Positions 7,268 to 63,725 of a stretch of 64,000 nt of DNA are shown here, piece by piece. The notes below the pieces were generated by a model. It was given only the letters and a program-made list of their open reading frames with translations, did not search any database and was not told the DNA's origin. Each line of letters opens with the position of its first letter. Within the stretch, counting starts at the first letter, position 1. Both the position numbers and the translations under genes were made by a program. The DNA is from Sneathiella chinensis (GTDB lineage Bacteria; Pseudomonadota; Alphaproteobacteria; Sneathiellales; Sneathiellaceae), in NCBI RefSeq assembly GCF_012720115.1, contig NZ_VNWN01000002.1:992001-1056000 (forward strand). The letters are read 5' to 3'.

Positions 7268-7792
7268 ATGTATCAAATTCTGCACGAGCAACCGGCCCAT
7301 GCGGCCAGCATTGAACCCCTTCTCGACCTGTGTTTCGGGCCGGAACGGTTTTTGAAAACCGCCTATAAGGTTCGCCAGGAACTTCAGCCGCTGCCAGAAC
7401 TCAGCTTCGTGGCGCTGGATGAGGGCGCCCTTGTGGGGACCCTTCGATACTGGCCAATCCGCATTGGCAATCCGGGGGCAAAAGCCATCTTGCTTGGACC
7501 CATTGCCATTCACCCCGACCGGCAGGGGGAGGGGATCGGTGTGGCCATGATCCGGCAAAGTCTGGCCCAGGCCCGGGCTGACGGACACCGCATTGTGGTT
7601 CTGGTAGGCGATCCTGAATATTATACCCGTTTTGGGTTTACCAGTGCGTCAGAAAGAAAACTGGAACTGCCGGGTCCGGTCGAGGATCGGCGGTTTCTGG
7701 TATCCGAACTGATCGATGGGGCGCTGGACGGTATTGGCGGTATGATCGCCGGTGATCCGCAGCAGGACAGGGATCAGGCGGCAATCGGTTAA
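7268..7792 (+). CDS. GNAT family N-acetyltransferase (YhbS-like)
   Basis: A 174-residue acetyltransferase. The start at ATG 7268 (MYQILHEQPAHAASIEPLLD) is preferred to an in-frame GTG at 7217 because it begins directly at the GNAT beta strand. The acetyl-CoA pyrophosphate loop is visible as HPDRQGEGIGVAMIRQSL (pattern Q/RxxGxG/A), preceded by LLGPIAIHP and followed by VVLVGDPEYYTRFGFTSASE, which is characteristic of the YhbS/COG3153 subgroup. Its acceptor substrate is unknown. It is convergent with the gene that follows on the minus strand. Confidence 0.88.
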   Translation: MYQILHEQPAHAASIEPLLDLCFGPERFLKTAYKVRQELQPLPELSFVALDEGALVGTLRYWPIRIGNPGAKAILLGPIAIHPDRQGEGIGVAMIRQSLAQARADGHRIVVLVGDPEYYTRFGFTSASERKLELPGPVEDRRFLVSELIDGALDGIGGMIAGDPQQDRDQAAIG

Positions 7793-7811
7793 GGCCTTCC
7801 TGATCCTGAGC

Positions 7812-7836
7812 GCGGGAAAATCAGCGACTTTCCCGC
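7812..7836. terminator. Hairpin between convergent genes
   Basis: GCGGGAAA (7812-7819) pairs with TTTCCCGC (7829-7836), straddling the stop codon of the minus-strand gene. There is no U-run, so any terminator function is uncertain. Confidence 0.35.
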
Positions 7837-26275: not shown

Positions 26276-29200
26276 ATGCTTTTGAAACATCCGGACGCAG
26301 ATAAGGAATGGCAGGGGGATGAAACGCCGCTGATCCTGGGCGCGCAAGAGCAACAAGCCGCAGACCCCGCCAAGGGAAAAAGCCGTCACCTTTGGGCCGC
26401 TCTTGCGGCCGTTATATCCCTCGGCTGGCTTGGGGCCGCCGCCTGGTATACCGAGCAGGTGATCGGTTGGCCCAACCTGTGGCAGATGCTGCCCCATGAA
26501 ATCGGGGTTTTCTTCACCGGCATTTTTACCCCGCTTGTGGTTCTCTGGTTGGTTGTTGCCTATTTTCGGCGCAGCACGGAAAACAAACTCAAGGCACAGG
26601 CCCTTGATGCCATGATCCGGGATCTTGGCTATCCCAGCCCCGAGGCCGAGGCCCGTGTGGCCAGCCTGACCCAGACCTTGCGCCGCCATGCCCGCGATGT
26701 ACAGGGCGAAACGGACGAGGCCGCCCGGAAACTGGAACAGGTCAATGAACGCCTTGAAAGCCAGTCAAAACTGGCATCGGAGTCCCTGACCGGATTGATG
26801 CAGGCCGGGGATCGTTTGCAGGGTGAGATGGACCGACGGGTCAAGCAACTGGAAGAGTTGATCCGGCAGGCAGAGGCACAATCCGAACGTCTGGACGCAC
26901 TGGCCGGTGAGCAGGTCCACAAGCTGGAGGAGGCCATAGAGGCCGTTGGAAGCCGCAGCGTTTCCATCAATGAGGAACTTTCCACCCAGATCACTGCCTT
27001 GGATACGGCCGTTGAAAAGGCCGGGGAACAATCCGGTAAAATGGCCCTGTCCCTTGAGAAAACCAGTCAGGAAATTGCGGCGGTGGCGGCGCAGGCGCTG
27101 GCCCGCGCAGAAAAGAACGGCGAGGAACTGGGCCGTGAAATCCGTGCGCTGGATGCCCTGTCGGAAGAAGTTCGGGCGAATATGGACCGGGGCGCGGACC
27201 ATGTGGCCGGGCGCGGCAATGACATGCGGGAACTGGCTCGGACGGTTTTGGGCGATCTGGATCGTGTCAGCGCTGAACTGCATAAAAATTCGACCAGCCT
27301 TGAGGCCGCGGGAGAGGCCGCCCACAACCGGGTTGGAACTGTACGCGACAGTCTGGCAGCCTCCGCTCAGGATCTGGAACGAGCCCTTGATGCGCTTGAG
27401 GATCGTCAGTCCCGGTATCGGGCCGATGTGGATACCACAACCCGGGAAATCGGGCAGGGAAGCGATCAGTTGGAGGCGGAAGTCCAGCGACTGGAACGAA
27501 ATGTCAGCGATGTAACCGAAAAGCTGTTGGGCCTGTCCGGTCATTTGCGGGATGAAATCGGGACGCTGGATACAACATGGCGTCAGACAGAAAGCGATCT
27601 GCAGACGGTGGAGCAGGTGTTGGAACGGGGCAGGGGCCTTCTGGCCGAAGCCAACGAGAATGCACTGGCATCGGCGGATCGTCTTGGCGGAAAACTGACC
27701 GGCCATGCCGAGACATTGCAACAGGCGACGGACATCGCCGCCAAGCGAACCGACGATATACAGGAACAAATCCGCAAGCAGATGAATGCCCTGTCCGTCG
27801 CCTCACGTCAGATCGAGGAGTTATCGCAGGAAATTGCCGCCCGGATGGGTGAGAATGTGGATATCCTGTCGGAGGCCAGTCTGGATACCAGCAACCGGAT
27901 CATTCAGGTGGGCAGCGGGTTCCAGCGTCAGGCCGAGGAATTGCGAAACGCAGCGGACCGGGTGTCCAGCCAGTTGAAGGAAGCGGGCGAGGAACTGCGC
28001 CGGGAAACCAGCGATATGGAGGTCAATGCCACGCAGGCTTCACGGGTGATCCGGGCCGCATCGGAAGAATTGGAGCGCAAGCACAAGGATCTTGGGAATG
28101 CGGCGGACCAGTCAAAGGTGAAGCTGGAGGCCGCTGTTGCGGAAACCGTCCGTCACCATCAGGATTTCATGGCAACGGCCGAACGGGCGACCCTGCAGGC
28201 CCGCCAATCGGGAGAGGCCGCCCATTCCCAAACCGCGGAACTGGCCAGAACAGCAGAGCGGGCCTCGGCTGAAATGCGGGCCATCGGGGATCAGGCGACA
28301 ACCTATATGAACGATCTTGCCCAAGCGGCAACGCGGGCGGAGGATCAGGGGCAGCGCCTGACCGAAACCGCCCGGGGCAACATGGAAGACCTTGAAGCGG
28401 CCAGCCTGTCTGCCCGGGATCATATGGATGAGTTGGCCCGCATGTCCGAAACCGCCCGCGAACACGCGGAGGCCATGGAAAAGGTCCTGCGCCATGAAAC
28501 TGTTGCCATGTCCGAGGTGGCCCGCGATCTGGCCGACAAGGCAGAAGTGATCGAGCGTCACCTGACAGAGCGGACGGATCTGCTTGAAAAAACACGGGGC
28601 CATGCGGATGTGGCGGGGGATGCCTTCCGCCGCAAGACCGTGGAACTGGCCAAGGCCAGCGAATTGATGCTGACCGGGTTGCATCATGCGGATAGTGCGC
28701 TTGAGCGACACACGCAGGAAATCGACACCACCCGCCAGCGCATACAGAAAGACCTTGAACAGGTGATCAACCAGATGACCCACGCGGGGAACCAGATCAA
28801 TTCAGAAAGCGAGGAGGCGGCCCGTGCCTTCCACACACGGGCCATGGAACTGATCCGCTTTTCCGAGCAGGCCAATGCCGGCTCTCGCGAGTTGGCGGAG
28901 CAGTTTGACGAACAACACCGCCGTCTGGAGAAGGCCGCCCGTCAGGTTGAGGTATCTTTGGGTGAGACCTCGGGTATCCTGAAAATGGAAAGCAGCAATC
29001 TGGCGGAAGCGGCCAGCAAGGCGGCAGAGGAAGCCCTGCTCAGCACAGCGCGCTTCCAGAAACAGGCAGAGGAATTGACCGAGGCCTCCAGCCGGGCTCG
29101 CCAGCAGGCGGAGGAAATCGCCGATCTTCAGAAGGCTCATAACGATGCGGCCTATACGCGGGGGGCGTCCCTCATTCTGGACAGCCTGCATTCCATTTCC

Positions 29201-29506
29201 ATCGATCTTGCCCGCAATCTGGATCGTGGTCTGCCGGACGACCTTTGGAAACGCTATCGCCGCGGCGAGAAAAGCATCTTTACCCGCAAGATCATGAAAT
29301 CCCGGGATGCGGAGAAAATTCGCGGCCTGTATCGGGATAGCGGCGAATTCAGAAGATACGTGGATCAGTATCTATCCGAATTCGATCGCTTGCAGCGGGA
29401 AGTGGAACGCTCTGAGCAGGCCGGATTGCTGGCCGACATGATCGAAAGTTCAGATGTGGGCAAGGTTTATATCCTGTTGACGGAGGCACTGGACACCTCC
29501 GCCTGA
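26276..29506 (+). CDS. Giant membrane-anchored coiled-coil protein, 1,076 residues
   Basis: Not recognised by name. Residues 39-57 and 74-97 are two hydrophobic helices (AALAAVISLGWLGAAAWYTE; FFTGIFTPLVVLWLVVAYFR). Residues about 120-960 form an almost uninterrupted alpha-helical, heptad-like coiled coil rich in Ala, Glu, Gln, Arg, with apolipoprotein/methyl-accepting-like repeats (QVNERLESQSK, ALDTAVEKAGEQSGKM). The last 110 residues are a separate conserved-looking domain (LDSLHSISIDLARNLDRGLP, DDLWKRYRRGEKSIFTRKIM, VGKVYILLTEALDTSA). No HAMP or signalling domain is seen, so it is not a chemoreceptor. It could be a structural or polar scaffold; this is inference. It is convergent with the MFS gene, with stop codons adjoining. 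Confidence 0.75.
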   Translation: MLLKHPDADKEWQGDETPLILGAQEQQAADPAKGKSRHLWAALAAVISLGWLGAAAWYTEQVIGWPNLWQMLPHEIGVFFTGIFTPLVVLWLVVAYFRRSTENKLKAQALDAMIRDLGYPSPEAEARVASLTQTLRRHARDVQGETDEAARKLEQVNERLESQSKLASESLTGLMQAGDRLQGEMDRRVKQLEELIRQAEAQSERLDALAGEQVHKLEEAIEAVGSRSVSINEELSTQITALDTAVEKAGEQSGKMALSLEKTSQEIAAVAAQALARAEKNGEELGREIRALDALSEEVRANMDRGADHVAGRGNDMRELARTVLGDLDRVSAELHKNSTSLEAAGEAAHNRVGTVRDSLAASAQDLERALDALEDRQSRYRADVDTTTREIGQGSDQLEAEVQRLERNVSDVTEKLLGLSGHLRDEIGTLDTTWRQTESDLQTVEQVLERGRGLLAEANENALASADRLGGKLTGHAETLQQATDIAAKRTDDIQEQIRKQMNALSVASRQIEELSQEIAARMGENVDILSEASLDTSNRIIQVGSGFQRQAEELRNAADRVSSQLKEAGEELRRETSDMEVNATQASRVIRAASEELERKHKDLGNAADQSKVKLEAAVAETVRHHQDFMATAERATLQARQSGEAAHSQTAELARTAERASAEMRAIGDQATTYMNDLAQAATRAEDQGQRLTETARGNMEDLEAASLSARDHMDELARMSETAREHAEAMEKVLRHETVAMSEVARDLADKAEVIERHLTERTDLLEKTRGHADVAGDAFRRKTVELAKASELMLTGLHHADSALERHTQEIDTTRQRIQKDLEQVINQMTHAGNQINSESEEAARAFHTRAMELIRFSEQANAGSRELAEQFDEQHRRLEKAARQVEVSLGETSGILKMESSNLAEAASKAAEEALLSTARFQKQAEELTEASSRARQQAEEIADLQKAHNDAAYTRGASLILDSLHSISIDLARNLDRGLPDDLWKRYRRGEKSIFTRKIMKSRDAEKIRGLYRDSGEFRRYVDQYLSEFDRLQREVERSEQAGLLADMIESSDVGKVYILLTEALDTSA

Positions 29507-33290: not shown

Positions 33291-35114
33291 TCAGGAGGCT
33301 TCCTTGGCGCGGGATGCCTTTTTCCGCTCATGCGGGTCAAGGTGGCGCTTGCGAAGCCGGATGTGGTTCGGTGTAACCTCAACCAGTTCATCATCATCAA
33401 TATAGGCAATGGCCTGTTCCAGGGTCATTTTCCGGGGCGTTGTCAAGCGAACCGCTTCATCAGTGCCAGCGGCCCGGATGTTCGTCAGCTGCTTGGCTTT
33501 CAGCGGGTTGACCTCAAGATCGTTCGGGCGGTTATGTTCGCCCAGAATCATGCCTTCATAGACATCAACGCCGCTTCCGATAAAGAACGCACCGCGGGCT
33601 TCAAGGTTCCAGATGGCAAAGGCAACCGATTTACCGGTGGAATTGGCGATCAGAACACCATTGCGACGGCCCGGAATGTCCCCCTTGTGCGGAACATAGG
33701 AATGGAACAGGCGGTTCATGATGCCGGTACCGCGGGTATCGGTCAGGAATTCGCCGTGATAGCCGATCAGGCCCCGTGTCGGGCAATGGAAGGTAATACG
33801 GGTCTTGCCGCCACCGGACGGACGCATATCTGTCATGGTGCCCTTGCGAAGGGCGATTTTTTCCACGACCACGCCGGAAAACTCTTCATCCACATCCACG
33901 ACAACCTCTTCCAGAGGCTCCAGCGTCTGGTCGGTGGCTTCGTCTTTGCGGAACAGAACGCGTGGGCGGCTGATGGAAAGCTCGAACCCTTCACGGCGCA
34001 TGGTTTCAATCAGAACGCCAAGCTGCAATTCGCCGCGGCCGGAGACGATGTAGCTGTCGGCTTCGGGGCTGTCTTCAACACGGATGGAGACGTTGCCTTC
34101 GATTTCCTTCATCAGGCGGTCGCGGATAACGCGGCTCTGGACCTTGTCACCATCCCGTCCGGCGAGCGGAGAGGAGTTGATGGCGAAGGTCATGGAGATG
34201 GTCGGCGGATCGATCGGCTGGGCATCCAGCGGCTGGGTTTCTTCGGGCGTACCCAGTGTATCCGCAACCGTGGTTTTGGCCAGACCCGCGACCGAGACAA
34301 TGTCACCGGCCCGGGCTTCATCAACGGTTTCCCGATCCAGTCCCCGGAAGGTCAGAATTTTGGAGGCGCGAGCATCCTCGATTTTTGAGCCGGTGCGGCT
34401 GAGTCCCTTGATCGGGTCGTTGGTTTTCAGGACACCGGCCTCAATACGGCCTGTCAGCAGGCGACCCAGATACGGGTTGCTTTCAATGGTGGTGACCAGC
34501 ATGCGGAACGGGGCTGTTTCATCCACGCTTGGCGCCGGAACGTGCTTGACGATCAGGTCAAACAGGGGGTTCAGGCTTTCTTTTGGATCGGACAGATCCT
34601 TGACCGCCCAGCCTTCCTTGGCAGACGCGTACAGGATCGGGAAGTCCAGCTGTTCCTCGTTGGCATCAAGGGCCACCAGCAGGTCAAAGCATTCGTCCAG
34701 AACTTCTTCCGGGCGGCCATCCGGGCGATCGGCCTTGTTGATCAGGACAATCGGTTTCAGGCCAAGGCCAAGGGCCTTCTGGGTCACGAATTTTGTCTGT
34801 GGCATGGGACCTTCGGCGGCGTCCACAAGGACCACTACACCGTCAACCATGCTCAGGATTCGTTCAACTTCGCCGCCAAAGTCGGCGTGGCCCGGGGTAT
34901 CGACCACATTCAGGCGGTATCCTTCCCACTCGACCGATGTACATTTCGCAAGAATGGTGATCCCGCGTTCGCGCTCCAGTTCGTTGGAGTCCATGGCCCT
35001 TTCAGCCACTTGTTGGTTCTCTCGGAACGTACCACTCTGTTTCAAGAGGCCATCCACAAGGGTTGTCTTCCCATGGTCAACATGGGCGATGATCGCTACG
35101 TTCCGAATTTCCAT
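33291..35114 (-). CDS. typA: Translational GTPase TypA/BipA
   Basis: A 607-residue ribosome-associated GTPase, the normal family length when started at ATG 35112-35114. The G1 motif is IAHVDHGKTTLVDGLLKQSG, followed by ERERGITILAKCTSVEW (G2), VVDTPGHADFGGEVERILSM (G3) and VLINKADRPDGRPEEVLDEC (G4). The C-terminal BipA-specific domain ends RKRHLDPHERKKASRAKEAS. A longer frame to 35984 has no coding support and overlaps the cupin gene on the other strand. BipA helps ribosome assembly and growth under stress and cold. It is preceded by a promoter at 35151-35178. Confidence 0.95.
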   Translation of the reverse strand: MEIRNVAIIAHVDHGKTTLVDGLLKQSGTFRENQQVAERAMDSNELERERGITILAKCTSVEWEGYRLNVVDTPGHADFGGEVERILSMVDGVVVLVDAAEGPMPQTKFVTQKALGLGLKPIVLINKADRPDGRPEEVLDECFDLLVALDANEEQLDFPILYASAKEGWAVKDLSDPKESLNPLFDLIVKHVPAPSVDETAPFRMLVTTIESNPYLGRLLTGRIEAGVLKTNDPIKGLSRTGSKIEDARASKILTFRGLDRETVDEARAGDIVSVAGLAKTTVADTLGTPEETQPLDAQPIDPPTISMTFAINSSPLAGRDGDKVQSRVIRDRLMKEIEGNVSIRVEDSPEADSYIVSGRGELQLGVLIETMRREGFELSISRPRVLFRKDEATDQTLEPLEEVVVDVDEEFSGVVVEKIALRKGTMTDMRPSGGGKTRITFHCPTRGLIGYHGEFLTDTRGTGIMNRLFHSYVPHKGDIPGRRNGVLIANSTGKSVAFAIWNLEARGAFFIGSGVDVYEGMILGEHNRPNDLEVNPLKAKQLTNIRAAGTDEAVRLTTPRKMTLEQAIAYIDDDELVEVTPNHIRLRKRHLDPHERKKASRAKEAS

Positions 35115-35150
35115 AGATTTCTTTACATTCACTGATAAAAAGGCGCGCGC

Positions 35151-35178
35151 AGTATAACGATCGTTCAGTATAAGGCAA
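35151..35178 (-). promoter_or_regulatory. Probable sigma-70 promoter of typA
   Basis: On the minus strand TTGCCT (35178-35173) and TATACT (35156-35151) are separated by 16 bases, about 37 bases before the typA start. The -10 lies in a pair of near-identical CAGTATAA repeats around CGATCG, which could be an operator. Confidence 0.5.
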
Positions 35179-35402
35179 GCATGAAGTAGGAGAGTCTTGT
35201 ACGATTTAGCAGTGATCAGGGTTGCGGTGAAAACAGGGGGCCGACAGGGGCAAAATGTTAAGGAAACAGCAAGAATTGTTTTTGTAATCAGTTGACAAGA
35301 CCGCCTTGGTGTTGAAATTAGGGTTCTTGTTAGAAACTGTTCCCGTTCGACCAAGGCGAGAATATGGTTTGTCTTTGTGAAGCAGGATAAAAGGGGGCGG
35401 CT

Positions 35403-35798
35403 ATCCCTAATAAATATCGAATAGGTGACGAGGATCGCCGGCCTTGGGGGCACTGGATTGTCACGGATATTGGTGATGATTTTGTCGTAAAGCGGATTAC
35501 TATCAATCCGGGTGCCCGATTGTCCTTGCAGTATCACCAGCACCGGGAAGAAATCTGGACAGTTGTACGTGGCGGCGGTGTTGCCGTCGTGGGTGATGAA
35601 ACTGTTTCTCTGGAAGTGGGGCAAACGGTGCGTGTTCCGGTTCTGAAATCCCACCGAATGACCAATACGGGGCAGGACCCTCTTGTCTTCATCGAAGTGC
35701 AAAAAGGGTTGGAGCTTGACGAAGACGACCTTGTACGTCTTGAAGATGACTATGGCCGCTCTGTTTCCGTATCCGCTTCTTCTGCCACTGCGGAATGA
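35403..35798 (+). CDS. Cupin protein similar to the C-terminal domain of ManC/mannose-6-phosphate isomerase type II, apparent ATC start
   Basis: A 131-residue single cupin. The conserved N-terminus IPNKYRIGDEDRRPWGHWIV and the core VKRITINPGARLSLQYHQHR (metal ligands H and H/E) and EEIWTVVRGGGVAVVGDE match stand-alone ManC-type cupins. The first ATG/GTG/TTG in the frame is the TTG at 35520, which cuts off the conserved RPWG part; the frame is closed by TAA at 35388-35390, and an ATC at 35403 with AAGGGGG five bases before sits at the right place. The stop overlaps the next ATG (ATGA). It probably isomerises or binds a sugar phosphate for the polysaccharide locus. Confidence 0.7.
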   Translation: MPNKYRIGDEDRRPWGHWIVTDIGDDFVVKRITINPGARLSLQYHQHREEIWTVVRGGGVAVVGDETVSLEVGQTVRVPVLKSHRMTNTGQDPLVFIEVQKGLELDEDDLVRLEDDYGRSVSVSASSATAE

Positions 35799-36982
35799 AT
35801 AAAAATCCCGGAAATAAATCTGTTCTGATATTTGTCGATTCCGACAGTCAGATTTTTGGGGCTCTGCCCCATGCCCATGCGTTCCGGGACAAGGGCTGGC
35901 AGGTGGTCTTTGGGTTGGGGGATGCAGGGAGCATTCCCGCCGCGGCGCTGGACCGGCTTGGCGGTGCCTTTGAAACCTTTCCATTGGAATATACGGAAGT
36001 CGCCGGACATGTCTTGGATGCGGGCTATAATGTTGTGGGGGTGTTCTCCAAGGCCAGCAAAATTCACCGGGTCCGTCAGCAGGTTGAGCAGAAATGCAAT
36101 GGCGAAAATGTCCGTCGGCCGGGCCTGTTTACCGCCTTTAACGGATTTACCTATGAACGGTTTGAAGAAGGGCTCGCCTGGCGGGTCGGGTATGACCTCA
36201 TTGCGCTGAACGGCCCAAGGGATGTGGCTTCGCTGCAGGATTTTCTGGCCTTTGGTGAGTGCAGTAAACAGCCTTACCGTATCTCCGGCCTGAAGCCATC
36301 CCGCCTGAGAGAGGCGGGGGAGGCGTCGCGCCCTGATAAAAAGGTTTTTGTTTTCGCAGAGCAGGTGATTGTTCCCCGTTCACGTGCGCAGCGCCTGTAT
36401 CTGGTTGCTGAATTGCGACGGCTGGCGCTTGATAACCCGGATTGGACCCTGAAGATCAAGTGCCGGGTCAAGAAAACAGAACGAACCTTTCATCGTGTCT
36501 CCTATCATTTTCAGGATTTGCTGGCTCGCCTCGGACCAACGCCCGCCAATCTGGAAATTACCTATCAGGGGATGCCCGAGCTTTTGAGAGAGGCAACCCT
36601 GTTCGGAACGATCTCCTCAACCGCTTTCTTTGACGCCCTGCACGAAGGGGTGCCGTCCATTGTTTTCAGTGATTTTGGTATTGCCAATGCCTTGGGGACG
36701 CATGCATTTGCGGGAAGCGGTGTGGCGGTCCGCCTGAAGGATCTGGGCAGCCTTTCCGAAATTGTGGGCCTTATGCCCAATGCGGGCTGGCTGGAATGGG
36801 TCGGGGCCGCCAATGTGGAGGCCGGACAGGTTGCCGGGTATTTTGACGGCAAGGCCTTCCACGGTCATCAATTCGAGCCGCAGTATCTGGATGCCCGTGC
36901 CGTTGAGGTGTGGGAGGAAACCAAGAAGCGCTTTGTGTTTGGCGCTGTTCTGTCCCGGATGATCGGGATGTTCAGAAAATAA
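35795..36982 (+). CDS. Putative glycosyltransferase (DUF6716-like), capsule locus
   Basis: A 395-residue protein, GT-B-like by eye. The N-terminal SVLIFVDSDSQIFGALPHAH, middle LKIKCRVKKTERTFHRVSYH and C-terminal LFGTISSTAFFDALHEGVPS and IVFSDFGIANALGTHAF fit the DUF6716 putative glycosyltransferases. These residues also align, loosely, with the protein at 42729-43898 (LRHLENENKVHTHKEQYSY, VASTAGVEALGSGIPT), so the two are probably paralogues. It is translated with the cupin gene through a four-base overlap. The sugar and acceptor are unknown. Confidence 0.6.
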   Translation: MNKNPGNKSVLIFVDSDSQIFGALPHAHAFRDKGWQVVFGLGDAGSIPAAALDRLGGAFETFPLEYTEVAGHVLDAGYNVVGVFSKASKIHRVRQQVEQKCNGENVRRPGLFTAFNGFTYERFEEGLAWRVGYDLIALNGPRDVASLQDFLAFGECSKQPYRISGLKPSRLREAGEASRPDKKVFVFAEQVIVPRSRAQRLYLVAELRRLALDNPDWTLKIKCRVKKTERTFHRVSYHFQDLLARLGPTPANLEITYQGMPELLREATLFGTISSTAFFDALHEGVPSIVFSDFGIANALGTHAFAGSGVAVRLKDLGSLSEIVGLMPNAGWLEWVGAANVEAGQVAGYFDGKAFHGHQFEPQYLDARAVEVWEETKKRFVFGAVLSRMIGMFRK

Positions 36983-40577: not shown

Positions 40578-41510
40578 ATGTCTGAAGTTCAAGTAATCGC
40601 GGAGATTGGCTGTAACCATAAAGGGGATATGGAAATCGCCAAGGAATTGATCAGGGTTGCTGCGGTTACCTGCGGGGCGCATGTTGCCAAGTTTCAAAAG
40701 CGCCACAACCGAGAGTTGCTGACTGCCGAGGAATATGACCGGGCTCATCCGGTCCCGGCCAATGCCTACGGGGATACCTACGGCGAACACCGGGAGTTTC
40801 TAGAACTGTCCGTTGAGCAGCACCGGGAATTGCAGGCTGAATGCGACAAATACGGCATCATCTATTCCACGTCCGTGTGGGACGTGACATCGGCCCGGGA
40901 AATTGCCTCCCTGAACCCGAAGCTGATCAAGATCCCTTCTGCGACCAATCTGCATTTCGAACTGCAGGAATATCTGTGCAAGCATTATGACGGCGAAATT
41001 CATGTTTCGACCGGCATGACCACGAAAGAGGAAATCGACCGGATCGTCGAATTTTATGAACAGCATGGACGCGCCAAGGATCTGGTGCTGTATGCCTGTA
41101 CATCCGGTTATCCTGTTGAATTCAAGGATGTCTGCCTGCTGGAAATCAATGCCCTGCAGAAGCGCTACGGAAACCGGGTGAAGATGATCGGTTTTTCCGG
41201 TCACCATCTTGGCATTGCGACTGACGTTGCTGCCATGACCGCCGGTGTTCTGGGCGAGCAGCTTTATGGCGGGACATTCGGATATATCGAGCGTCACTTC
41301 ACGCTGGACCGGACCTGGAAGGGGACAGACCATTCCGCAAGCCTTGAGCCGGATGGGCTGCGTCGCTTGTGCCGGGATGTGAAGAATGTCCGTCAGACCC
41401 TGCAGGCAAAATCTGAAGATGTTCTCGACGTTGAAAAGGTGCAGCGGGACAAGCTGAAATGGCAGCCCCGTGACGGTGAAGTTGTCGCCCTTGAGGGCGC
41501 AACTGCCTGA
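40578..41510 (+). CDS. NeuB-family nonulosonic acid synthase lacking the SAF domain
   Basis: A 310-residue synthase of the N-acetylneuraminate synthase family. The barrel motifs are clear: VIAEIGCNHKGDMEIAKEL, VAKFQKRHNRELLT (substrate lysine), STSVWDVTSAREIASLNPKL, IKIPSATN, STGMTTKEEIDRIVEF, YACTSGYPVEF, IGFSGHHLGIATDV and YIERHFTLDRTWKGTDHSAS. Normal NeuB has about 346 residues with a C-terminal SAF (antifreeze-like) domain; here the protein ends shortly after the barrel. It condenses PEP with a hexosamine-like or hexose sugar, free or 6-phosphorylated. AGGGGG lies five bases before the ATG. It is 17 bases upstream of the CMP-sugar synthetase gene. Confidence 0.85.
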   Translation: MSEVQVIAEIGCNHKGDMEIAKELIRVAAVTCGAHVAKFQKRHNRELLTAEEYDRAHPVPANAYGDTYGEHREFLELSVEQHRELQAECDKYGIIYSTSVWDVTSAREIASLNPKLIKIPSATNLHFELQEYLCKHYDGEIHVSTGMTTKEEIDRIVEFYEQHGRAKDLVLYACTSGYPVEFKDVCLLEINALQKRYGNRVKMIGFSGHHLGIATDVAAMTAGVLGEQLYGGTFGYIERHFTLDRTWKGTDHSASLEPDGLRRLCRDVKNVRQTLQAKSEDVLDVEKVQRDKLKWQPRDGEVVALEGATA

Positions 41511-41527: not shown

Positions 41528-42709
41528 ATGAATGTTGTCGCAATAATCCCTGCGAGGGGCGGATCGAAAGGAATCCCGGGCAAGAATAAAAAATTGCTCG
41601 GGGGCTTGCCGCTTATCAGCCATACCATCCGGGCGGCTCAGGGGGCGCTAAATGTGGGCCGGGTCTATGTCAGCAGTGATGACGACGAAATACTGGCCAT
41701 CGCCGCCCGTGAGGGCGCGGTTGCGGTAAGGCGTCCCGATGCGCTGGCAACCGATGAGGCCAGTTCTGAAACCGCCCTTCTGGATTGCCTTGAGCAGATA
41801 TCCGGGGCGGGGCCGCTGCCTGACTATATTGCGTTTCTTCAATGCACGTCCCCCTTCGTGACCTCGGCAGAAATCGAGGAAGTTGTTCAGAAGGGAACCG
41901 CAGAGGGGGTGGATAGCGCCTTTAGTGCGGTGCCGGATCACGCCTTTTTGTGGCAGGTTGGCTCAGATGGCTTGGCCGAAGGGGTCAATCACAACGCGGA
42001 TGAACCCAGAAAACGGCGGCAGGACCTGCCTGCCCAGTTTCGGGAAAATGGCGCCATTTATGTGATGAAAACCGGCCCCTTCCTGCGCGAGAGAGAGCGG
42101 TTCTGCGGCAACACTGTCGTTGTCCCTGTGAAGGGGAGTCCGCTGGAACTGGATACGCTGGAAGATTGGGACAATGCGGAAAAGCTGATGGCGATCCGTG
42201 CGTCCTCCCCGGACCGACAGGCACAGCCCTCTGGCCTTGTGCCGCAGATTATTCGAACCGTTGTCATGGATTTTGACGGAGTTCATACAGACAATCGGGT
42301 CTATGTTTCCGAAGCGGGCGTTGAAAGCGTTGTCTGTAGCCGGGATGACGGTTTTGGCGTGGAATTGCTGCGAAAAAGCGGCTTCCGGCTGCTGATCCTT
42401 TCAAAAGAGAGAAATCCTGTCGTCAGGCTTCGGGCTGAAAAGCTGAAGGTTGAAGTGATGCACGGTGTGGATGAGAAGGAGGCCATTCTTTCCGGGTGGC
42501 TGTCTGACAACAATCTGGACTGGAAGGATGTGGCCTATATCGGCAATGACCTGAACGATCTGGACTGTATTCGCCGTGCGGCCCTCGGTTTCTGCCCGGC
42601 CGATGCCCACCTGACCGTCCGCAACCATGCCGACCATGTCTTGAAGAATGCTGGCGGGTCCGGCGCCATTCGCGAAATGGCAGAGCTCCTGCTGGATGCC
42701 GCCCGCTAG
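41528..42709 (+). CDS. CMP-nonulosonate cytidylyltransferase fused to KdsC-like HAD phosphatase
   Basis: A 393-residue two-domain enzyme. Residues 1-225 are a NeuA-type cytidylyltransferase (IIPARGGSKGIPGKNKKLLG, SHTIRAAQ, FLQCTSPF, FRENGAIYVM, ELDTLEDW). Residues 240-393 are a KdsC/KDO-8-P-phosphatase-type HAD domain with nucleophile D248 and D250 (VVMDFDGVHTDNRV), S292 in LILSKERN and YIGNDLNDLDC. So one polypeptide could dephosphorylate a nonulosonate-9-phosphate and activate it with CTP. Both catalytic aspartates are present, unlike the degenerate HAD domain of vertebrate CMAS. It follows neuB in one operon. Confidence 0.88.
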   Translation: MNVVAIIPARGGSKGIPGKNKKLLGGLPLISHTIRAAQGALNVGRVYVSSDDDEILAIAAREGAVAVRRPDALATDEASSETALLDCLEQISGAGPLPDYIAFLQCTSPFVTSAEIEEVVQKGTAEGVDSAFSAVPDHAFLWQVGSDGLAEGVNHNADEPRKRRQDLPAQFRENGAIYVMKTGPFLRERERFCGNTVVVPVKGSPLELDTLEDWDNAEKLMAIRASSPDRQAQPSGLVPQIIRTVVMDFDGVHTDNRVYVSEAGVESVVCSRDDGFGVELLRKSGFRLLILSKERNPVVRLRAEKLKVEVMHGVDEKEAILSGWLSDNNLDWKDVAYIGNDLNDLDCIRRAALGFCPADAHLTVRNHADHVLKNAGGSGAIREMAELLLDAAR

Positions 42710-42728
42710 GCAAGTGAAATATACTGAA

Positions 42729-43898
42729 ATGTCTGAAGTAGAAAAAAGCACCAAAAACAGGGCTCTGCTGTTGTTCAAGGACGACAGCTCGCTGATGTCT
42801 GCTGTGAAGTTGGAGCGCATCTTAGGCGGAGAGAATTTCACCTTTGAGTATTGCTACGCACATAATTCAAGACATGGCGGCAGGGAGCTTTCAGAACGTC
42901 AAATAAACCTTAGCCTCGAAGGACGAAAAGTCGACTACACCCTTGAAATTCGGGAGGCTTCAGATGAAAGGTTCCTGGAAAAGTTTGATACTGTTTATGC
43001 CTGTAAGTATCCTGGTATATTCAAAATGAAGTGGGTGCTGAGGTTGTGGAATTTTAAAGCTCGGCGGCCTTGTTTTGTTTCTTCATTTCCGGGGATAGAG
43101 TTTACTCCAAAATCGGGGATTAGGGCTCGTCAATATTCCGATGTTGTTTGTTTGAACACGGTAGATGATGTCTCGGTTTTTAGGAAGTTCGCATCAAAAA
43201 GGTGGCAAAAGAATACGGAAGCCATCCAATTTAGTCCGTTCTTTTTTAGTAAAAATAAAGTTCATGCTGAGGCGCCTGTTCGCAATGTTGTGTTTTTTTC
43301 TCAGAGCGTTATGCCTGAGTCTCGAGAAGGTCGTGTAGACGTTTTAGGGTTTTTGGTGGAGGCAGCTAGGTTGAACCCTGGCGTGCTCATAACAATCAAG
43401 TTGCGACATCTTGAAAATGAAAACAAGGTGCATACCCACAAGGAGCAATATTCCTATCCGAGTTTGTTGCGAGAGGAGTTTCCCTTGGACGCTCCTGAAA
43501 ATCTGGTTTTTAGTGCTGATAGTATGGAAAAGATCCTGGAAGAATGTGATTTTGCTGTCACTGTAGCATCTACTGCAGGGGTTGAGGCGCTGGGAAGTGG
43601 GATTCCGACCTTGTTTCTCGGTGATTTTATGGGAATTCGCGATGAATGGTACCACAAGGCATTGATTGAATTTGTTGGTGAAAGCGGATTGTTGGGCGGA
43701 AAAGAAGATTTGTTGAGTTTGAGGCCTTCGCGTCCGGATGAAGCGTGGTACATGAATACGATGTCGACAGAGGATCATGTGAAAATTTTGACGGAGAAAA
43801 TCCTGGGCTTCGATCACGGGAAAGCTGCTAGAGGTGAAGGGTATATCGGAAAGTTGCTCCCTCAATCCTTGAAGCGTTTTTTATATTCTTTTTTATAA
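42729..43898 (+). CDS. Putative glycosyltransferase (DUF6716-like paralogue)
   Basis: A 389-residue protein, start ATG 42729 likely (MSEVEKSTKNRALLLFKDDS); an ATG at 42696 is an alternative. The C-terminal half has GVLITIKLRHLENENKVHTH, DFAVTVASTAGVEALGSGIP and TLFLGDFMGIRDEWYHKALI, the nucleotide-sugar-binding arrangement of GT-B-like enzymes, and resembles the protein at 35795-36982. The N-terminus (VKLERILGGENFTFEYCYAH) is more divergent. From this gene on, codon use becomes clearly AT-richer than in the neuA/neuB genes. Its position right after CMP-sugar synthesis suggests a transferase for that sugar, which is inference. Confidence 0.6.
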   Translation: MSEVEKSTKNRALLLFKDDSSLMSAVKLERILGGENFTFEYCYAHNSRHGGRELSERQINLSLEGRKVDYTLEIREASDERFLEKFDTVYACKYPGIFKMKWVLRLWNFKARRPCFVSSFPGIEFTPKSGIRARQYSDVVCLNTVDDVSVFRKFASKRWQKNTEAIQFSPFFFSKNKVHAEAPVRNVVFFSQSVMPESREGRVDVLGFLVEAARLNPGVLITIKLRHLENENKVHTHKEQYSYPSLLREEFPLDAPENLVFSADSMEKILEECDFAVTVASTAGVEALGSGIPTLFLGDFMGIRDEWYHKALIEFVGESGLLGGKEDLLSLRPSRPDEAWYMNTMSTEDHVKILTEKILGFDHGKAARGEGYIGKLLPQSLKRFLYSFL

Positions 43899-44026: not shown

Positions 44027-46102
44027 ATGATTTTTTCGCAAGGCATCAGGAGGGCGATTAGAAAAGGTGATTTTAAATTTGCTTGTGAACTGCTGAAGCA
44101 GACAGAAGCGGTTTTACAGAATACTCCTGGAGCAATTTTTATCCTGGGGCGGCTATATTTTCGCGTTGGAGAATATAGCAAAGCACTGGATTGTTTTCGG
44201 AAGGTGGAAAGCAGATTCTCTAGACAGTTCCGATACTGGAAATTTCGCGCAAAGGCTAGCTATTCTTCCTGTGACTATGGGGATGCCAGCCTCAGTTTCA
44301 AAAAAATGTCTGACGCTGGAAGTGTAGATGAGTATCAGCAGGCTTGTTGGGCTATCAGTGCTTACCGTTGTGGTGCATTTCAGCAAGCTTTTGAATTGTT
44401 CGACGAAATTTCGGATTATTGCGATCAGTTTTTTTATTTGAGGTCGTTTCGAGGGTTCGCTGACACCTTGGCAAATGGCGCGAAATTTGAGCCGGAATTG
44501 AGAATGAAATGGCCAGAATTGGTCGTTGTGCAAGGAATTGTACAATGCCGCCAGAAGGCTCTTCTGCAAGAAGAGGAGTTGCTAACATCATTGCTCTTGA
44601 ATAGCCCTCCAGGGGTTTGGGGGCGGTCCTTCTTTTGTGGGGAGGGGAGTGTCAGAGGAGGAGCCCCGGAATCCAAGGCTGTGCTTGGTGAGTTGGTGGC
44701 GCATTTGGAAGGAAGCCTTGTTTTGAATGAGGACTGGAGCAAGAGATCCGAGGTTTTCGGACTGGTCCTTGCCCGCATCAATTTTTCCATCAGGAAGCTG
44801 GGTCAAGCTGCTACTCTTTATTCTCAATTGTTCCAAAGTCCCGAAATGAATTTTTATGACTATCAATTGGCAGGGGCTTGTTGTTTCCGTGCAGGAGACC
44901 TGGAAAGTTCAAAAGTTATCTTTTTACGGCAAATTGAGTGGAAACCCGATGACCGTCACGCCTATTTCAATTTGGCTTTGATTTACGATGAATTGGGGGA
45001 GCTCGAAAAAGCTCTGGAATATGCTAAAATCCAACTCAATATTGTACCGAGGCATGCTGGCGCCTTGATGTGGCTGGCGGAGGTTTATATTGACCTAGAC
45101 CTTGAAATATTGGCGGAGCAGCAGCTTGTAAAGCTAGTCCATATCAAGAATAAAAACACAAATCGTTTTGGCCTGATTAAAAAGAAGTTCGAGGGCGTAT
45201 TCGGCCGTCCGATTAAGCCAAAATCAACGCCTGCCGATTTCAGCTATATTGACTGGTCCAGAATTTCGGTTCCTGACGAATTTGTCCTGACGGAAGATTT
45301 AATCGATGTAAAGCCTCCCCGTAAGAGAGGAGAAAATACCTTAAAAATCCTGTTTCGTGTCGTTGGAGCCCTCATGCTGCGTGAAATGACGACGCGTTTC
45401 GGCAGAAATGGGTTGGGGTATCTTTGGGTCGTGATTCAGCAGATCATATTTATTAGTGTTTTTGCCCTGCTGTTCGAATATCGTGGTCGCAGTTTGCCAT
45501 ATGGCGTCTCGATGCTGGCCTTTCTTATTACTGGCATCAACGCGTTTTTTATTTTCAGAAATACCGTATCTCAGGTAAGGAATGCGTTAAAAAGCAACAT
45601 TAGCCTTCTCTATTATCGGCAGGTTTCCCCATTTTCTATTTACATGTCGAGGGCCGTTTTGGAAACCTTGACAGGTATTTTCATTTTTGGTGCTTTGGTC
45701 GGGATCTCGGTTGTTAGTGGGGAAGAACTAAGGATGACCAGCGTTCTTCAAGTGCTTGGTATTCTTGTTATGCTGGGGCTTTTCGGAACCTGTTACGGAC
45801 TTCTGATGGCGACCATTTCAACGTTTGTGCCGTCGATCAAGCATTTTGAGCAAGCGATTAACAGAATTCTTTTTTTCACCTCAGGTCTCTTCTACTATGC
45901 AAACGAGTTGCCACAGGGGTTGCGCGAGATATTGCTGTGGAATCCCTTGCTGCATCTGATTGAACTACTTCGTGATGGTTTCTTCGCAACCTATACCGCA
46001 GAATATGCCAGCCTTGAGTATGTGATGTGGTGGACAGCCGGGTTTTTATTTTTTGCCCTTATTCTGGAGATCGTTGGACGGAAAAGGATGCTGGAAGCTT
46101 GA
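44027..46102 (+). CDS. TPR domain fused to ABC-2 capsule export permease (KpsM-like)
   Basis: A 691-residue fusion. Residues 1 to about 395 are TPR-like helical repeats (GRLYFRVGEYSKALDCFRKV, NLALIYDELGELEKALEYAK, LMWLAEVYIDLDLEILAEQQ), with no signal peptide, so cytoplasmic. Residues about 440-691 are an ABC-2 permease of the KpsM type: LREMTTRFGRNGLGYLWVVI (the elbow helix motif of these permeases), six hydrophobic helices, and LLWNPLLHLIELLRDGFF. A KpsM normally has about 260 residues, so the N-terminal part is extra. ATG 44027 is preceded by GGAAAAA. The stop overlaps the TTG start of kpsT (TTGA). Confidence 0.85.
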   Translation: MIFSQGIRRAIRKGDFKFACELLKQTEAVLQNTPGAIFILGRLYFRVGEYSKALDCFRKVESRFSRQFRYWKFRAKASYSSCDYGDASLSFKKMSDAGSVDEYQQACWAISAYRCGAFQQAFELFDEISDYCDQFFYLRSFRGFADTLANGAKFEPELRMKWPELVVVQGIVQCRQKALLQEEELLTSLLLNSPPGVWGRSFFCGEGSVRGGAPESKAVLGELVAHLEGSLVLNEDWSKRSEVFGLVLARINFSIRKLGQAATLYSQLFQSPEMNFYDYQLAGACCFRAGDLESSKVIFLRQIEWKPDDRHAYFNLALIYDELGELEKALEYAKIQLNIVPRHAGALMWLAEVYIDLDLEILAEQQLVKLVHIKNKNTNRFGLIKKKFEGVFGRPIKPKSTPADFSYIDWSRISVPDEFVLTEDLIDVKPPRKRGENTLKILFRVVGALMLREMTTRFGRNGLGYLWVVIQQIIFISVFALLFEYRGRSLPYGVSMLAFLITGINAFFIFRNTVSQVRNALKSNISLLYYRQVSPFSIYMSRAVLETLTGIFIFGALVGISVVSGEELRMTSVLQVLGILVMLGLFGTCYGLLMATISTFVPSIKHFEQAINRILFFTSGLFYYANELPQGLREILLWNPLLHLIELLRDGFFATYTAEYASLEYVMWWTAGFLFFALILEIVGRKRMLEA

Positions 46103-46755
46103 TAATATTGAATAACATATCAAAGCGGTACCTCACAAAGAATGGTGAAAGAGTTGTTCTTAACCCTACGTCTTTGAAAATCCCTAGCAATGAACATATT
46201 GCCATACTTGGGCGTAATGGGGCTGGGAAGTCGACGTTGTTGCGGATGATTGCGGGGGTGGAGCAGCCAGACCAAGGTAAAATTGTGCGCTTGGCGCATT
46301 TGTCGTGGCCGATCGGGTTCGGTGGGGCTTTGCACAATGCGCTGACAGGGCGCCAAAATGTTGAATTTACTGCCAGAATAAACTCTGTTGATATTGAAGA
46401 GGCGACGCAGTACGTCGAGGATTTTTCCGAGCTTGGTAAATATCTGGATGAGCCGGTTTCAACCTACAGTGCCGGAATGAGGTCGCGTTTGGCTTTCGGG
46501 CTAAGCTTAAGTATTGATTTTGACTGTTATCTGATTGACGAAGCAATTTCTACTGGTGATAAATGGTTCAGGGAAAAAGCTGCCCTTGCATTTGATGAGC
46601 GAAGACAGACATCAGGTGTCTTGTTCGTCTCTCATAATCCAGGAACGGTAAAGCGGTTCTGTGATAAAGGGTTAGTCCTTGTTGAAAGCCGGTTGGTTCC
46701 GTTTTCGGATCTGGACGAAGCAATTGATTTCTACAATTATGGCCTTCTGAAATAG
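46099..46755 (+). CDS. kpsT: Capsule export ABC transporter ATPase (KpsT-like)
   Basis: A 218-residue ATPase of the KpsT/Wzt type. Starting at TTG 46099, which overlaps the permease stop, gives MIILNNISKRYLTKNGERVV. Walker A is ILGRNGAGKST (residues 36-46), the signature is STYSAGMRSRLAFGLSL and Walker B is CYLIDEAISTGDKWF, followed by the switch His in FVSHNPGTVKRFCDKG. It lacks a C-terminal carbohydrate-binding extension, as expected for KpsT. With the permease it exports a finished polysaccharide across the inner membrane. The frame's ORF start at 46027 lies inside the permease and is rejected. Confidence 0.92.
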   Translation: MIILNNISKRYLTKNGERVVLNPTSLKIPSNEHIAILGRNGAGKSTLLRMIAGVEQPDQGKIVRLAHLSWPIGFGGALHNALTGRQNVEFTARINSVDIEEATQYVEDFSELGKYLDEPVSTYSAGMRSRLAFGLSLSIDFDCYLIDEAISTGDKWFREKAALAFDERRQTSGVLFVSHNPGTVKRFCDKGLVLVESRLVPFSDLDEAIDFYNYGLLK

Positions 46756-46790: not shown

Positions 46791-48032
46791 GTGAGCAACG
46801 AAGAACGAGTACCGGTTGTCAGAACTGGAAAGCAAGTGGAGCCTCAGCGCGCTGGTCAGAGGGGGCTGGCGCAAATTGTGGAGGCTGCTTCTGCACCGGT
46901 AGTGTATGAAAAAGCCAATAAGTCGCGACTGTCTTTATATTTGCAGTTCCTGTTTATATTGATTATTCCCACAATTGTTGCTGTTGTCTATTTCGGTTTT
47001 ATTGCTTCTGATCGGTATGTATCGAACAACCGTATTGTCATTCAGTCCGCAGACATGGGGGCGGTGAGCGGTGTTGCCAGTTTGATTACGGGTAGTTCGT
47101 TGGGAGGTGGTGGAGGTATGGGGTCGCAGGGCGATATCCTAGCCAGCTACATACACTCAAACAGCATATTGCAAGAACTGGATAACTTGCTGGATCTGAG
47201 AAAAATTTATTCTCCAGAAAGCGTGGATCAGTTTTCCCGGCTGGGCGATGAGGCTTCCCAAGAAGATTTTCTTGAATATTACCGCAAAATGACGCTTGTG
47301 GAATGGGATCCGGGAACGAGCCTGCTATATGTGGAGGTTGAGGCCTTCACACCCAATGATGCAAAGTTAATACTCGATACGATCATTATGCTAAGCGAGG
47401 AAAAGCTTAACTCTCTCAAAGAAAGAAAGCAAAGTGACCGGGTTGCTTTCGCTCGCCAAGAATTGAAGTTGGCAGAGGAAAGACTTTTTCAGGCTCGGCT
47501 GGCTGTAGCGGACTTTCGTCGAAAGTATGGCGAGATTGACCCCCTGAAATCTGCTGAAGCCAAGGGCAGCTTGCTGGCGACTTTGAACGAAGAATTGGCC
47601 GCGGCCAGGACCGAGCTGACGTCGTTGAGATTTGCGCTAAAGCCCGAAAGTCCGCAGGTGCAGTCCGCTGTAGCGCGTATCAAGGCCTTGGAGGAGCAGG
47701 TAAGTCAGGAAAAGGCCAAGGCGACCCGTCAGTTGAAAGGGGATAATTCTACCGCCCTAAGCGATTTGGTTACCGAATTCGAGGGTTTAATCATTGAAGA
47801 AGAGTTTGCACGAGCAACCTATACGTCAGCGCTGGCCTTTCTTGAAAACACCCGTGCTTCAGCTCAACAAGACAGTAGTTATGTCGTCGATTTCATTGAA
47901 GCCAACCTGCCGCAGGAAGCGACACAGCCCAAGCGGTTGCAAATTATCGCATCTGTTTTCGTAATCTGCTTGTTAGTTCTGGGTATTGGTAATTTGATCG
48001 TTGCTGCAATCAAGGAGCAGGCGCGACTATAG
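46791..48032 (+). CDS. kpsE: Capsule export inner-membrane protein (KpsE/polysaccharide co-polymerase-like)
   Basis: A 413-residue KpsE-type protein of the membrane periplasmic auxiliary group. A transmembrane helix lies at about 48-70 (SLYLQFLFILIIPTIVAVVY), then the conserved FGFIASDRYVSNNRIVIQSA and a glycine run (SSLGGGGGMGSQGDILASYI), a coiled coil at about 200-330 (AEERLFQARLAVADFRRKYG, ALKPESPQVQSAVARIKALE) and a second helix at about 385-405 (LQIIASVFVICLLVLGIGNL). KpsE bridges the ABC exporter with the outer-membrane protein. The GTG at 46791 starts the frame; its 3' end is next to the GSCFA gene. Confidence 0.9.
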   Translation: MSNEERVPVVRTGKQVEPQRAGQRGLAQIVEAASAPVVYEKANKSRLSLYLQFLFILIIPTIVAVVYFGFIASDRYVSNNRIVIQSADMGAVSGVASLITGSSLGGGGGMGSQGDILASYIHSNSILQELDNLLDLRKIYSPESVDQFSRLGDEASQEDFLEYYRKMTLVEWDPGTSLLYVEVEAFTPNDAKLILDTIIMLSEEKLNSLKERKQSDRVAFARQELKLAEERLFQARLAVADFRRKYGEIDPLKSAEAKGSLLATLNEELAAARTELTSLRFALKPESPQVQSAVARIKALEEQVSQEKAKATRQLKGDNSTALSDLVTEFEGLIIEEEFARATYTSALAFLENTRASAQQDSSYVVDFIEANLPQEATQPKRLQIIASVFVICLLVLGIGNLIVAAIKEQARL

Positions 48033-61940: not shown

Positions 61941-63725
61941 GTGTTTGGAATTTCTGAGAATTTGACAGGACTGGCGCGTGGTATGAAGCTGGCCCTTGGA
62001 GCAGGGATGTGCTCGGCACTTCTGATGAGCGGCGCGCTGGCCCAGACAACCTCGAACGCTGCCACGGTCGATAATCCTTTTGCTTCGGACATGCCCGCCA
62101 GCCAGAGCCATATGGTGCCGGTTATCCCGACGGACGGAGAGGTGAACGGCGGACAGTCGGATATTGTTCGCAATCCTGCCTTGCCCAACCCGGAGGAAAC
62201 CACCACGCCTTACGGTCAGGTCTCGCCCGTTCTGGAAGAGGCTGAAATTTTCCCGTTTGGTCACCAGTTGTTCGCCAAATCAAATTTTGTCGATCAAAGC
62301 CTGTCCGTGAATTCCGACTATGCCATTTCTCCGGGGGACCGGATCGTGGTCAAGATGTGGGGCGCGCGGGTGTATGAAAATGTCCTGTCCGTGGACGTAC
62401 AGGGCAATATCTTCATTCCCGAGGTCGGTCCCATCTATGTGGAGGGATCCCGAAATTCCCAGCTGAATTCAATCGTCGGGAAAAGCGTGTCCCGCGTCTT
62501 CACGGACAATGTGAAGGTCTATACAAACCTGCTGGGAACGCAGCCGATCGGTGTTTTTGTCACGGGCGCGGTAAAATACCCGGGCCGTTATCCGGGCGCG
62601 AAGTCAGACAGTATTCTTTATTATCTGTCCCGGGCAGGCGGCGTTGACCCCGAGCAGGGCAGCTATCGGTCCATTCTGGTGCGGCGAAAAGGGGAAACCC
62701 TTGCCTCGGTCGACCTGTATAACTTCCTCGTCAATGGTGACCTGGCGGATGTCCAGTTTGAAGACAAGGACACCATTGTAGTGGGCGCGCAGCTTCCAAC
62801 GGTCAGTGTCTCCGGTGAGGTGAAGAACAGCTACAAGTTTGAAATCGATCCGCGGACCTATTCCGGGGCGGATGTGTTGCGGATTGCCAACCCGAAGGGA
62901 ACCGCAAGCCACGTCCTGCTGAAAGGTGTGCGGGGGGACAAGGCGATCAGCCAGTTCATCACGATGGATCAGGCACAAAGGTCCCGCTTGGCAGCAGGCG
63001 ACCAGTTGTTTGTGGAAAGCGATCAGACCTCTGACGAGATTACCGTCAAGGTGAGCGGCAATACGGAAGGGGCCTCAACCTTGACCGTTTCAAGGTCCGC
63101 AACCCTTGGCCAGATTGCCAACCTGATCAAAACCGATCCGCTGACCCATGAGTTGGGAGCGATCTATATCCGCCGCCCGTCGGTCGCAGAGCGTCAGAAG
63201 CGGGCCATTGAAAAGTCACTTTATGAATTGCAGCGGTCGGTCCTGACCGGTTCTTCCTCCAGCACCAGTGCCTCCCAGATCCGTGTGCAGGAAGCGCAAC
63301 TGATTGATCGGTTTGTGCAGCAGGCGCGGGCGGTCGAGCCCGAAGGGCGTGTGGTCCTGTCCGGGGTTGATTGGTCCGGCACCCATGTTGAGGACGGGGA
63401 CGAGATTGTCATTCCGGAGAAAACGGATGTTGTCTTCATCAGTGGTGAAGTGAAGGTTCCGCAAACCATCTTGTGGCGGGAAGAGTATTCATCGGCTGAC
63501 TATATCGAGGCGTCAGGTGGCCTGAGCAACCGGGGCGATGACGACAGGCTTGTGATTGTCCGGCTGGACGGGTCGGTTCATGACGGCAGCAAGAAAATCA
63601 TGAAGGGCGACCAGATTCTGGTGCTGCCAAGGATTGATACCAAGCTGTTCGCCATGTTCAAGGATCTGGTGGAAATCACCTACCGGGTGGCCTTGTCGGC
63701 TGCTGTGGTCCTGCGGGCGGATTAA
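61941..63725 (+). CDS. Polysaccharide export outer-membrane protein (Wza/KpsD-like)
   Basis: A 594-residue exporter. The GTG start at 61941 gives a signal peptide with its core at about residues 15-36 (MKLALGAGMCSALLMSGALA); ATG 61983 is the alternative start. The poly-export domain begins NSDYAISPGDRIVVKMWGAR and continues IFIPEVGPIYVEG, and SLBB domains follow (PIGVFVTGAVKYPGRYPGAK, TVSVSGEVKNSYKFEIDPRT, VVFISGEVKVPQTILWREEY). It ends in a hydrophobic helix (VEITYRVALSAAVVLRAD). It forms the outer-membrane channel used by KpsMTE-type exporters. A GC hairpin follows at 63749. Confidence 0.9.
   Translation: MFGISENLTGLARGMKLALGAGMCSALLMSGALAQTTSNAATVDNPFASDMPASQSHMVPVIPTDGEVNGGQSDIVRNPALPNPEETTTPYGQVSPVLEEAEIFPFGHQLFAKSNFVDQSLSVNSDYAISPGDRIVVKMWGARVYENVLSVDVQGNIFIPEVGPIYVEGSRNSQLNSIVGKSVSRVFTDNVKVYTNLLGTQPIGVFVTGAVKYPGRYPGAKSDSILYYLSRAGGVDPEQGSYRSILVRRKGETLASVDLYNFLVNGDLADVQFEDKDTIVVGAQLPTVSVSGEVKNSYKFEIDPRTYSGADVLRIANPKGTASHVLLKGVRGDKAISQFITMDQAQRSRLAAGDQLFVESDQTSDEITVKVSGNTEGASTLTVSRSATLGQIANLIKTDPLTHELGAIYIRRPSVAERQKRAIEKSLYELQRSVLTGSSSSTSASQIRVQEAQLIDRFVQQARAVEPEGRVVLSGVDWSGTHVEDGDEIVIPEKTDVVFISGEVKVPQTILWREEYSSADYIEASGGLSNRGDDDRLVIVRLDGSVHDGSKKIMKGDQILVLPRIDTKLFAMFKDLVEITYRVALSAAVVLRAD

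Follow-up and report, generated by a model that had tools for sequence, protein, structure and literature searches.

A TPR arm joined to a KpsM-type capsule permease in Sneathiella chinensis and other Alphaproteobacteria

How the synthesis of group 2 capsules is coupled to their export through KpsMT is an open question, and the links between the two have been deduced largely from cross-linking and two-hybrid evidence (PMC2408645). A gene in Sneathiella chinensis bears on this question. It lies in a 64,000-nucleotide stretch of contig NZ_VNWN01000002.1, referred to below as the window, and it encodes a TPR region followed by a KpsM-type permease. Is this fusion genuine, how widely does it occur, and what might an N-terminal arm do on a transporter that mostly works without one?

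A TPR region and a KpsM-type permease in one frame

The gene and its parts are arranged as follows.

44027..46102, + strand: TPR-KpsM fusion gene, 691 aa (Pfam, NCBIfam, phmmer)
44027..45154, + strand: N-terminal helical TPR arm, residues 1-376 (Pfam, AlphaFold, VIA-align)
45155..45325, + strand: flexible linker of ~57 residues, residues 377-433 (pLDDT <50)
45329..46099, + strand: KpsM-type ABC-2 permease with its N-terminal interface helix, residues 435-691 (Pfam, NCBIfam, phmmer, Foldseek, VIA-align)

The frame begins with an ATG and runs without interruption for 691 residues; the longest possible start, TTG 44015, would give 695. At residues 12-76 and 283-345, matches to Pfam models of the TPR, a 34-residue repeat built from a helix pair, pass the gathering thresholds (TPR_8 with 40.4 against a gathering score of 25.7, and TPR_1, TPR_2, TPR_14 and TPR_19 likewise). 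Residues 446-653 match ABC2_membrane (PF01061; E 1.4e-14, 54.6 bits against a gathering score of 26.9), residues 444-687 match the NCBIfam KpsM model (E 6.8e-42, 144.2 bits), and residues 439-683 match the solved KpsM chain 8tsh_C in a phmmer search (E 7.7e-30). The NCBIfam score falls below the curated 300-bit cut-off of NF050053 (KpsM sensu stricto), as it does for all 289 genomes of the class, none of which passes it; thus, the window permease is best classed by sequence as a KpsM relative outside that equivalog. A search of the whole protein against its own genome gave no second match at E up to 0.001, so that the fusion is the only KpsM detected there.

Structure prediction by AlphaFold from a 30-sequence alignment gave the permease at high confidence. 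The top Foldseek match of the model was KpsM 8tsh_C (target TM 0.90), and VIA-align superimposed the permease on 8tsh KpsM with Z 30.3-30.9 (257 residues at Z 30.8) and 30 % identity in the structural alignment; the modelled permease contains the interface helix and six TM helices of the solved fold. Residues 251-378 of the arm align with MamA and with designed TPR proteins at Z 16-18. In the middle of the arm, residues ~79-252 are predicted as helices with pLDDT <50, and the linker (376-433) is predicted to be disordered, also with pLDDT <50. Thus, Pfam, NCBIfam, phmmer and AlphaFold bear out the initial annotation of an uninterrupted frame with TPRs and a complete KpsM-type permease, while the TPR length that it gave, about 395 residues, is a maximum: clear TPRs are found by sequence and AlphaFold at both ends of the arm (1-~60 and ~251-376), the middle is helical at low confidence and the last part is linker. 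A more regular arm was obtained for the fusion of Enhydrobacter aerosaccus, for which the predicted structure (pLDDT 86-97 in most blocks) consists of a 14-helix TPR solenoid, a disordered tether and KpsM. In structure comparison, the Enhydrobacter arm matches designed TPRs and the TPR domain of O-GlcNAc transferase.

An obvious concern is that two separate genes were joined by a sequencing or assembly error, and a hidden stop or frameshift near 45,330 had been named in advance as the finding that would undo the fusion. Apart from the unusual length of the protein, nothing favors such an error. Each of the other two frames contains 6 stops within 45201-45460, compared with 0 in the fusion frame, and GC3 is continuous over the junction (0.467 in the TPR part, 0.502 in linker plus permease). 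Two independently assembled genomes of the same genus share the layout, with proteins of 676 and 657 aa. An internal start for a separate KpsM was also considered and rejected: from residue 421 to ATG 450 there is no ATG, GTG or TTG, and ATG 450 itself lies within a permease helix. We therefore regard an error as extremely improbable and the TPR-KpsM fusion as genuine.

The surrounding genes belong to a capsule locus, which includes the following.

40578..41510, + strand: NeuB-type nonulosonate synthase, same locus
41528..42709, + strand: CMP-nonulosonate cytidylyltransferase fused to a KdsC-like phosphatase
42648..43898, + strand: putative glycosyltransferase (DUF6716; Pfam), immediately upstream of the fusion
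46099..46755, + strand: kpsT (ATPase), likely TTG start, 4-base overlap with the kpsM stop
46791..48032, + strand: kpsE-type polysaccharide export inner-membrane protein (TIGR01010, E 8.4e-75)
61941..63725, + strand: outer-membrane polysaccharide export protein (Poly_export plus SLBB)

The overlap of kpsT with the kpsM stop, already noted in the initial annotation, stands: the best kpsT start is TTG 46099, within TTGA, and ATGA occupies the same place in the Sneathiella relatives L005 and L006. Downstream of the fusion, the window encodes KpsE, an SGNH/GSCFA protein, glycosyltransferases, a sulfotransferase and the outer-membrane export protein. Just past the window end are genes for an SDR, a sulfatase-fold protein, an aminotransferase-class acyl synthase, a KpsS-like protein and a type I PKS of 2,571 residues; the last three of these, at 4-14 kb past it (L107 5015-15335), adjoin the capsule locus as an rkp-1-like lipid-anchor cluster. 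We take the locus as a whole to resemble the rhizobial rkp-1 region, and by this likeness the polymer would probably be a K-antigen-like capsule that contains nonulosonate. Elsewhere in the window, a BipA/TypA frame (33291-35984, - strand) has about 290 open codons ahead of the family start and overlaps an opposite-strand DUF6716 gene at 35795, and this upstream part is probably spurious; a 1,076-aa open frame (26276-29506, + strand) has a weak DUF4381 match as its only Pfam match.

Distribution and evolution of the fusion

We counted 13 distinct fusion proteins, all from Alphaproteobacteria (Sneathiella, Reyranella, Enhydrobacter, Yoonia and other lineages), including one, L062, whose permease end is damaged or cut. 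Within a family sample of 26 genomes, the fusion is found in 3 (the window genome, G020 and G022) and an ordinary KpsM in G005, G007 and G021; sister Sneathiella also have KpsM without an arm. A class-wide sample of 385 genomes yielded 38 KpsM loci in 32 genomes, taken as KpsM profile matches at E up to 1e-25, and 4 of these 38 are TPR fusions (G000, G094, G302 and G742). When the phylum was sampled (398 genomes), TPR fusions were again confined to Alphaproteobacteria; outside this class, 22 genomes had matches, and one of these matches carries a long extension that is not TPR. More Reyranella, Enhydrobacter aerosaccus, Yoonia tamlensis and further Alphaproteobacteria came from scanning genome contigs, with proportions that are biased by a search pattern built from fusion sequences. 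KpsM relatives are present in 319-337 plasmid records, and in none of them does the match extend over 80 % of a fusion. For the other two Sneathiella fusions, TPR matches are weak by sequence, and their arms are better described as TPR-like than as proven TPR.

Several candidates were set aside. Phaeobacter plasmid matches that start upstream of KpsM belong to genes of the usual kind, about 300 aa long, and long open frames in G064, G398, G606 and L076 reflect ordinary starts or non-TPR extensions. One KpsM, L097 (2003-4497, - strand), has a long low-complexity, non-TPR N-terminal extension, and its KpsT-like neighbor seems to be without a normal Walker A motif.

Most KpsM relatives in the analysis have about 257-300 residues, in agreement with the expected length of about 260 residues without an extension, and the fusion architecture is recurrent yet a minority among KpsM. 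The initial annotation had counted it as a refutation if such fusions proved common and already described. At most half of this holds: they recur, but as a minority, and our search of the open literature, with subscription papers outside its scope, found no description of TPR-KpsM. Within the literature searched, this domain architecture is thus undescribed, although the transporter itself is well known.

Both kpsT and kpsE lie beside the fusion in all 12 fusion loci examined with their flanks. Among the genes looked for within flanks of a few kb, none beyond these two is common to all fusion loci. Separate TPR proteins or TPR enzymes occur near three unfused capsule loci (L145, L153 and L161), a hint that TPR proteins serve capsule loci in unfused form as well. 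At L145, where kpsE, kpsM and kpsT form an unfused operon, a separate TPR protein (7654-8394, - strand) is encoded directly downstream of kpsT and may represent the fusion in split form.

In a tree of 75 rows built from the permease alone, 12 fusions occupy three positions: the window protein alone, L005 with L006, and nine proteins from several orders. Forcing all 12 into one clade costs 44 log units and is rejected (p-AU 0.00037), whereas a clade of the three Sneathiella proteins is not (p-AU 0.073). Either the arm was gained repeatedly, or a gain was followed by losses and transfer; the tree, in which some branches are long, does not separate gains from losses. L005 and L006 share homology along the length of the arm (27 % identity, 409 aa, E 9e-42), and the arms within the nine-member group are homologous as well. 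The window arm has no significant BLAST similarity to those of L005 and L006 (E 0.029); the window protein and L005 do share an I.VPD.F linker motif, in each case 33 residues before the ALxLRE motif of the permease. For homologous pairs, conservation is lower in the arm than in the permease (28/43, 57/78, 44/64 and 78/94 %). The most conserved arm helix of the Reyranella-Yoonia group, EF.LHR..LL, has an entropy of 1.24 compared with a TPR mean of 1.72, and its E and L presumably lie on the concave face by the usual TPR numbering.

Possible roles of the arm

The N-terminus of KpsM is formed by an interface helix on the cytosolic side (PMC11041684), and by this topology an arm attached to this end must be cytosolic, as the initial annotation had proposed. 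Our favored reading, to which we assign a probability of about 0.5, is that the arm is a LapB-like cytosolic scaffold that docks capsule proteins of its own locus at the exporter entrance. On this reading, the gene encodes the one permease detected for a capsule system of the ABC-transporter-dependent kind (group 2 or rhizobial KPS-like). With two KpsM per transporter there would be two arms, and a (KpsM)2(KpsT)2 complex would thus carry them tethered below the membrane, beside the entrance canyon. Each arm might bind cytosolic capsule proteins, either glycosyltransferases or a KpsS-type linker enzyme, and this binding could keep polymer synthesis at the exporter, as has been proposed for LapB with LPS enzymes. 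A precedent is LapB, a cytosolic TPR scaffold proposed to gather glycosyltransferases (PMC6358824), and there is published evidence that the group 2 machineries for capsule synthesis and export work as a single complex (PMC2408645).

Protein binding by the arm, and the identity of its partners, are what we infer from the TPR fold, from an arm that diverges faster than the permease, as would be expected if it binds locus-specific enzymes, and from the recurrence of the fusion. A scaffold role, as initially suggested, is therefore plausible, while co-occurrence points to no partner: of the genes looked for, none beyond kpsT and kpsE is common to the fusion loci. Two of the partners first suggested, the GSCFA protein and the sulfotransferase, find no support in the gene neighborhoods. 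Relatives of the GSCFA protein are found in 0 of 11 other fusion loci compared with 2 of 27 unfused loci (flanks of a few kb). Within the same flanks, the window sulfotransferase has one relative, at an unfused locus, and none at the other fusion loci, two of which encode sulfotransferases of a different type. It also counts against docking that most KpsM, including those of sister Sneathiella, work armless, and that the middle of the window arm is modelled at low confidence; fast divergence of the arm fits weak constraint as well.

Another explanation is that the arm is a nearly neutral passenger, acquired by accidental fusion with a neighboring TPR gene and without a role in the capsule. The presence of TPR proteins and enzymes at L145, just downstream of kpsT, and at L153 and L161 fits this explanation, as does rapid divergence. 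However, the fusion recurs on the same gene in several lineages, the frames have stayed open over divergences as old as that between L005 and L006, and one group retains a conserved arm helix, all of which make a passenger improbable. A rather larger, though still minor, share of our expectation goes to a role within the exporter itself, in which the arm would contact KpsT, the N-termini of KpsE or the other KpsM and regulate assembly, stability or gating, with no synthesis enzymes bound. The constant presence of kpsT and kpsE beside the fusions is consistent with such contacts, and the arm adjoins the interface helix, which is mobile in the ATP cycle (PMC11041684). Conserved partners such as KpsT, however, do not predict a fast-evolving arm, and most transporters with the same KpsT and KpsE have none.

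TPRs usually bind peptides, which counts against direct binding of the polysaccharide or its lipid end by an arm that guides it into the canyon. The arm is well placed for this at the cytosolic entrance, and it is basic in L005 and L006 (pI 9.3-9.5). The window arm, however, has a neutral pI of 7.0, and several further arms have an acidic one (5.0-5.3). A conserved basic arm was sought and not found; pI spans 5.0 to 9.7 and net charge is not conserved, which disfavors direct binding of an acidic polymer, and we judge this explanation to be quite unlikely. That the arm diverges fast yet keeps its fold, recurs and varies in charge is easier to reconcile with binding of locus-specific protein partners than with polymer binding. 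A bolder form of the docking scaffold, which we put forward tentatively and hold to be less probable than docking as such, is that TPR-KpsM is a one-piece coupler, in which the arm would clamp the polymerizing glycosyltransferase complex to the ABC exporter, so that growth and export would be obligatorily linked, and which would have evolved more than once in Alphaproteobacteria.

Comparison with known systems

The closest known relatives of the permease part are KpsM of the S. thermodepolymerans KpsMT-KpsE structure (8tsh; PMC11041684) and rhizobial RkpT, which resemble the fusion in permease fold, interface helix and adjacency to kpsT and kpsE. Known KpsM proteins have about 260 residues and no N-terminal arm, whereas the fusion has one.

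AlgK, PelB and PgaA are TPR scaffolds of synthase-dependent exopolysaccharide export. Likewise, BcsC (PMC12220298) resembles the fusion in placing TPRs in polysaccharide secretion. The TPRs of BcsC, AlgK, PelB and PgaA are periplasmic and join an outer-membrane pore, whereas those of the fusion would lie on the cytosolic side of an ABC permease. The group 2 'sialisome' of E. coli K1 is similar to the role proposed here in that synthesis is coupled to KpsMT export, but its components, for example KpsC with NeuS and KpsE, are joined non-covalently and no TPR arm has been described in it (PMC2408645). LapB (YciM) shares with the fusion a cytosolic TPR region at the inner membrane and is a proposed gatherer of glycosyl- and acyltransferases that hands the product to export (PMC6358824). 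The window protein is not of the LapB family, as it scores 14.3 bits with the LapB model (cut-off 395) and has no rubredoxin match in Pfam. LapB is a protein of its own and includes a rubredoxin domain, whereas the TPR arm of the fusion is covalently part of the permease. In harmless environmental bacteria, this natural fusion offers a defined, deletable part with which to find a partner and to probe coupling.
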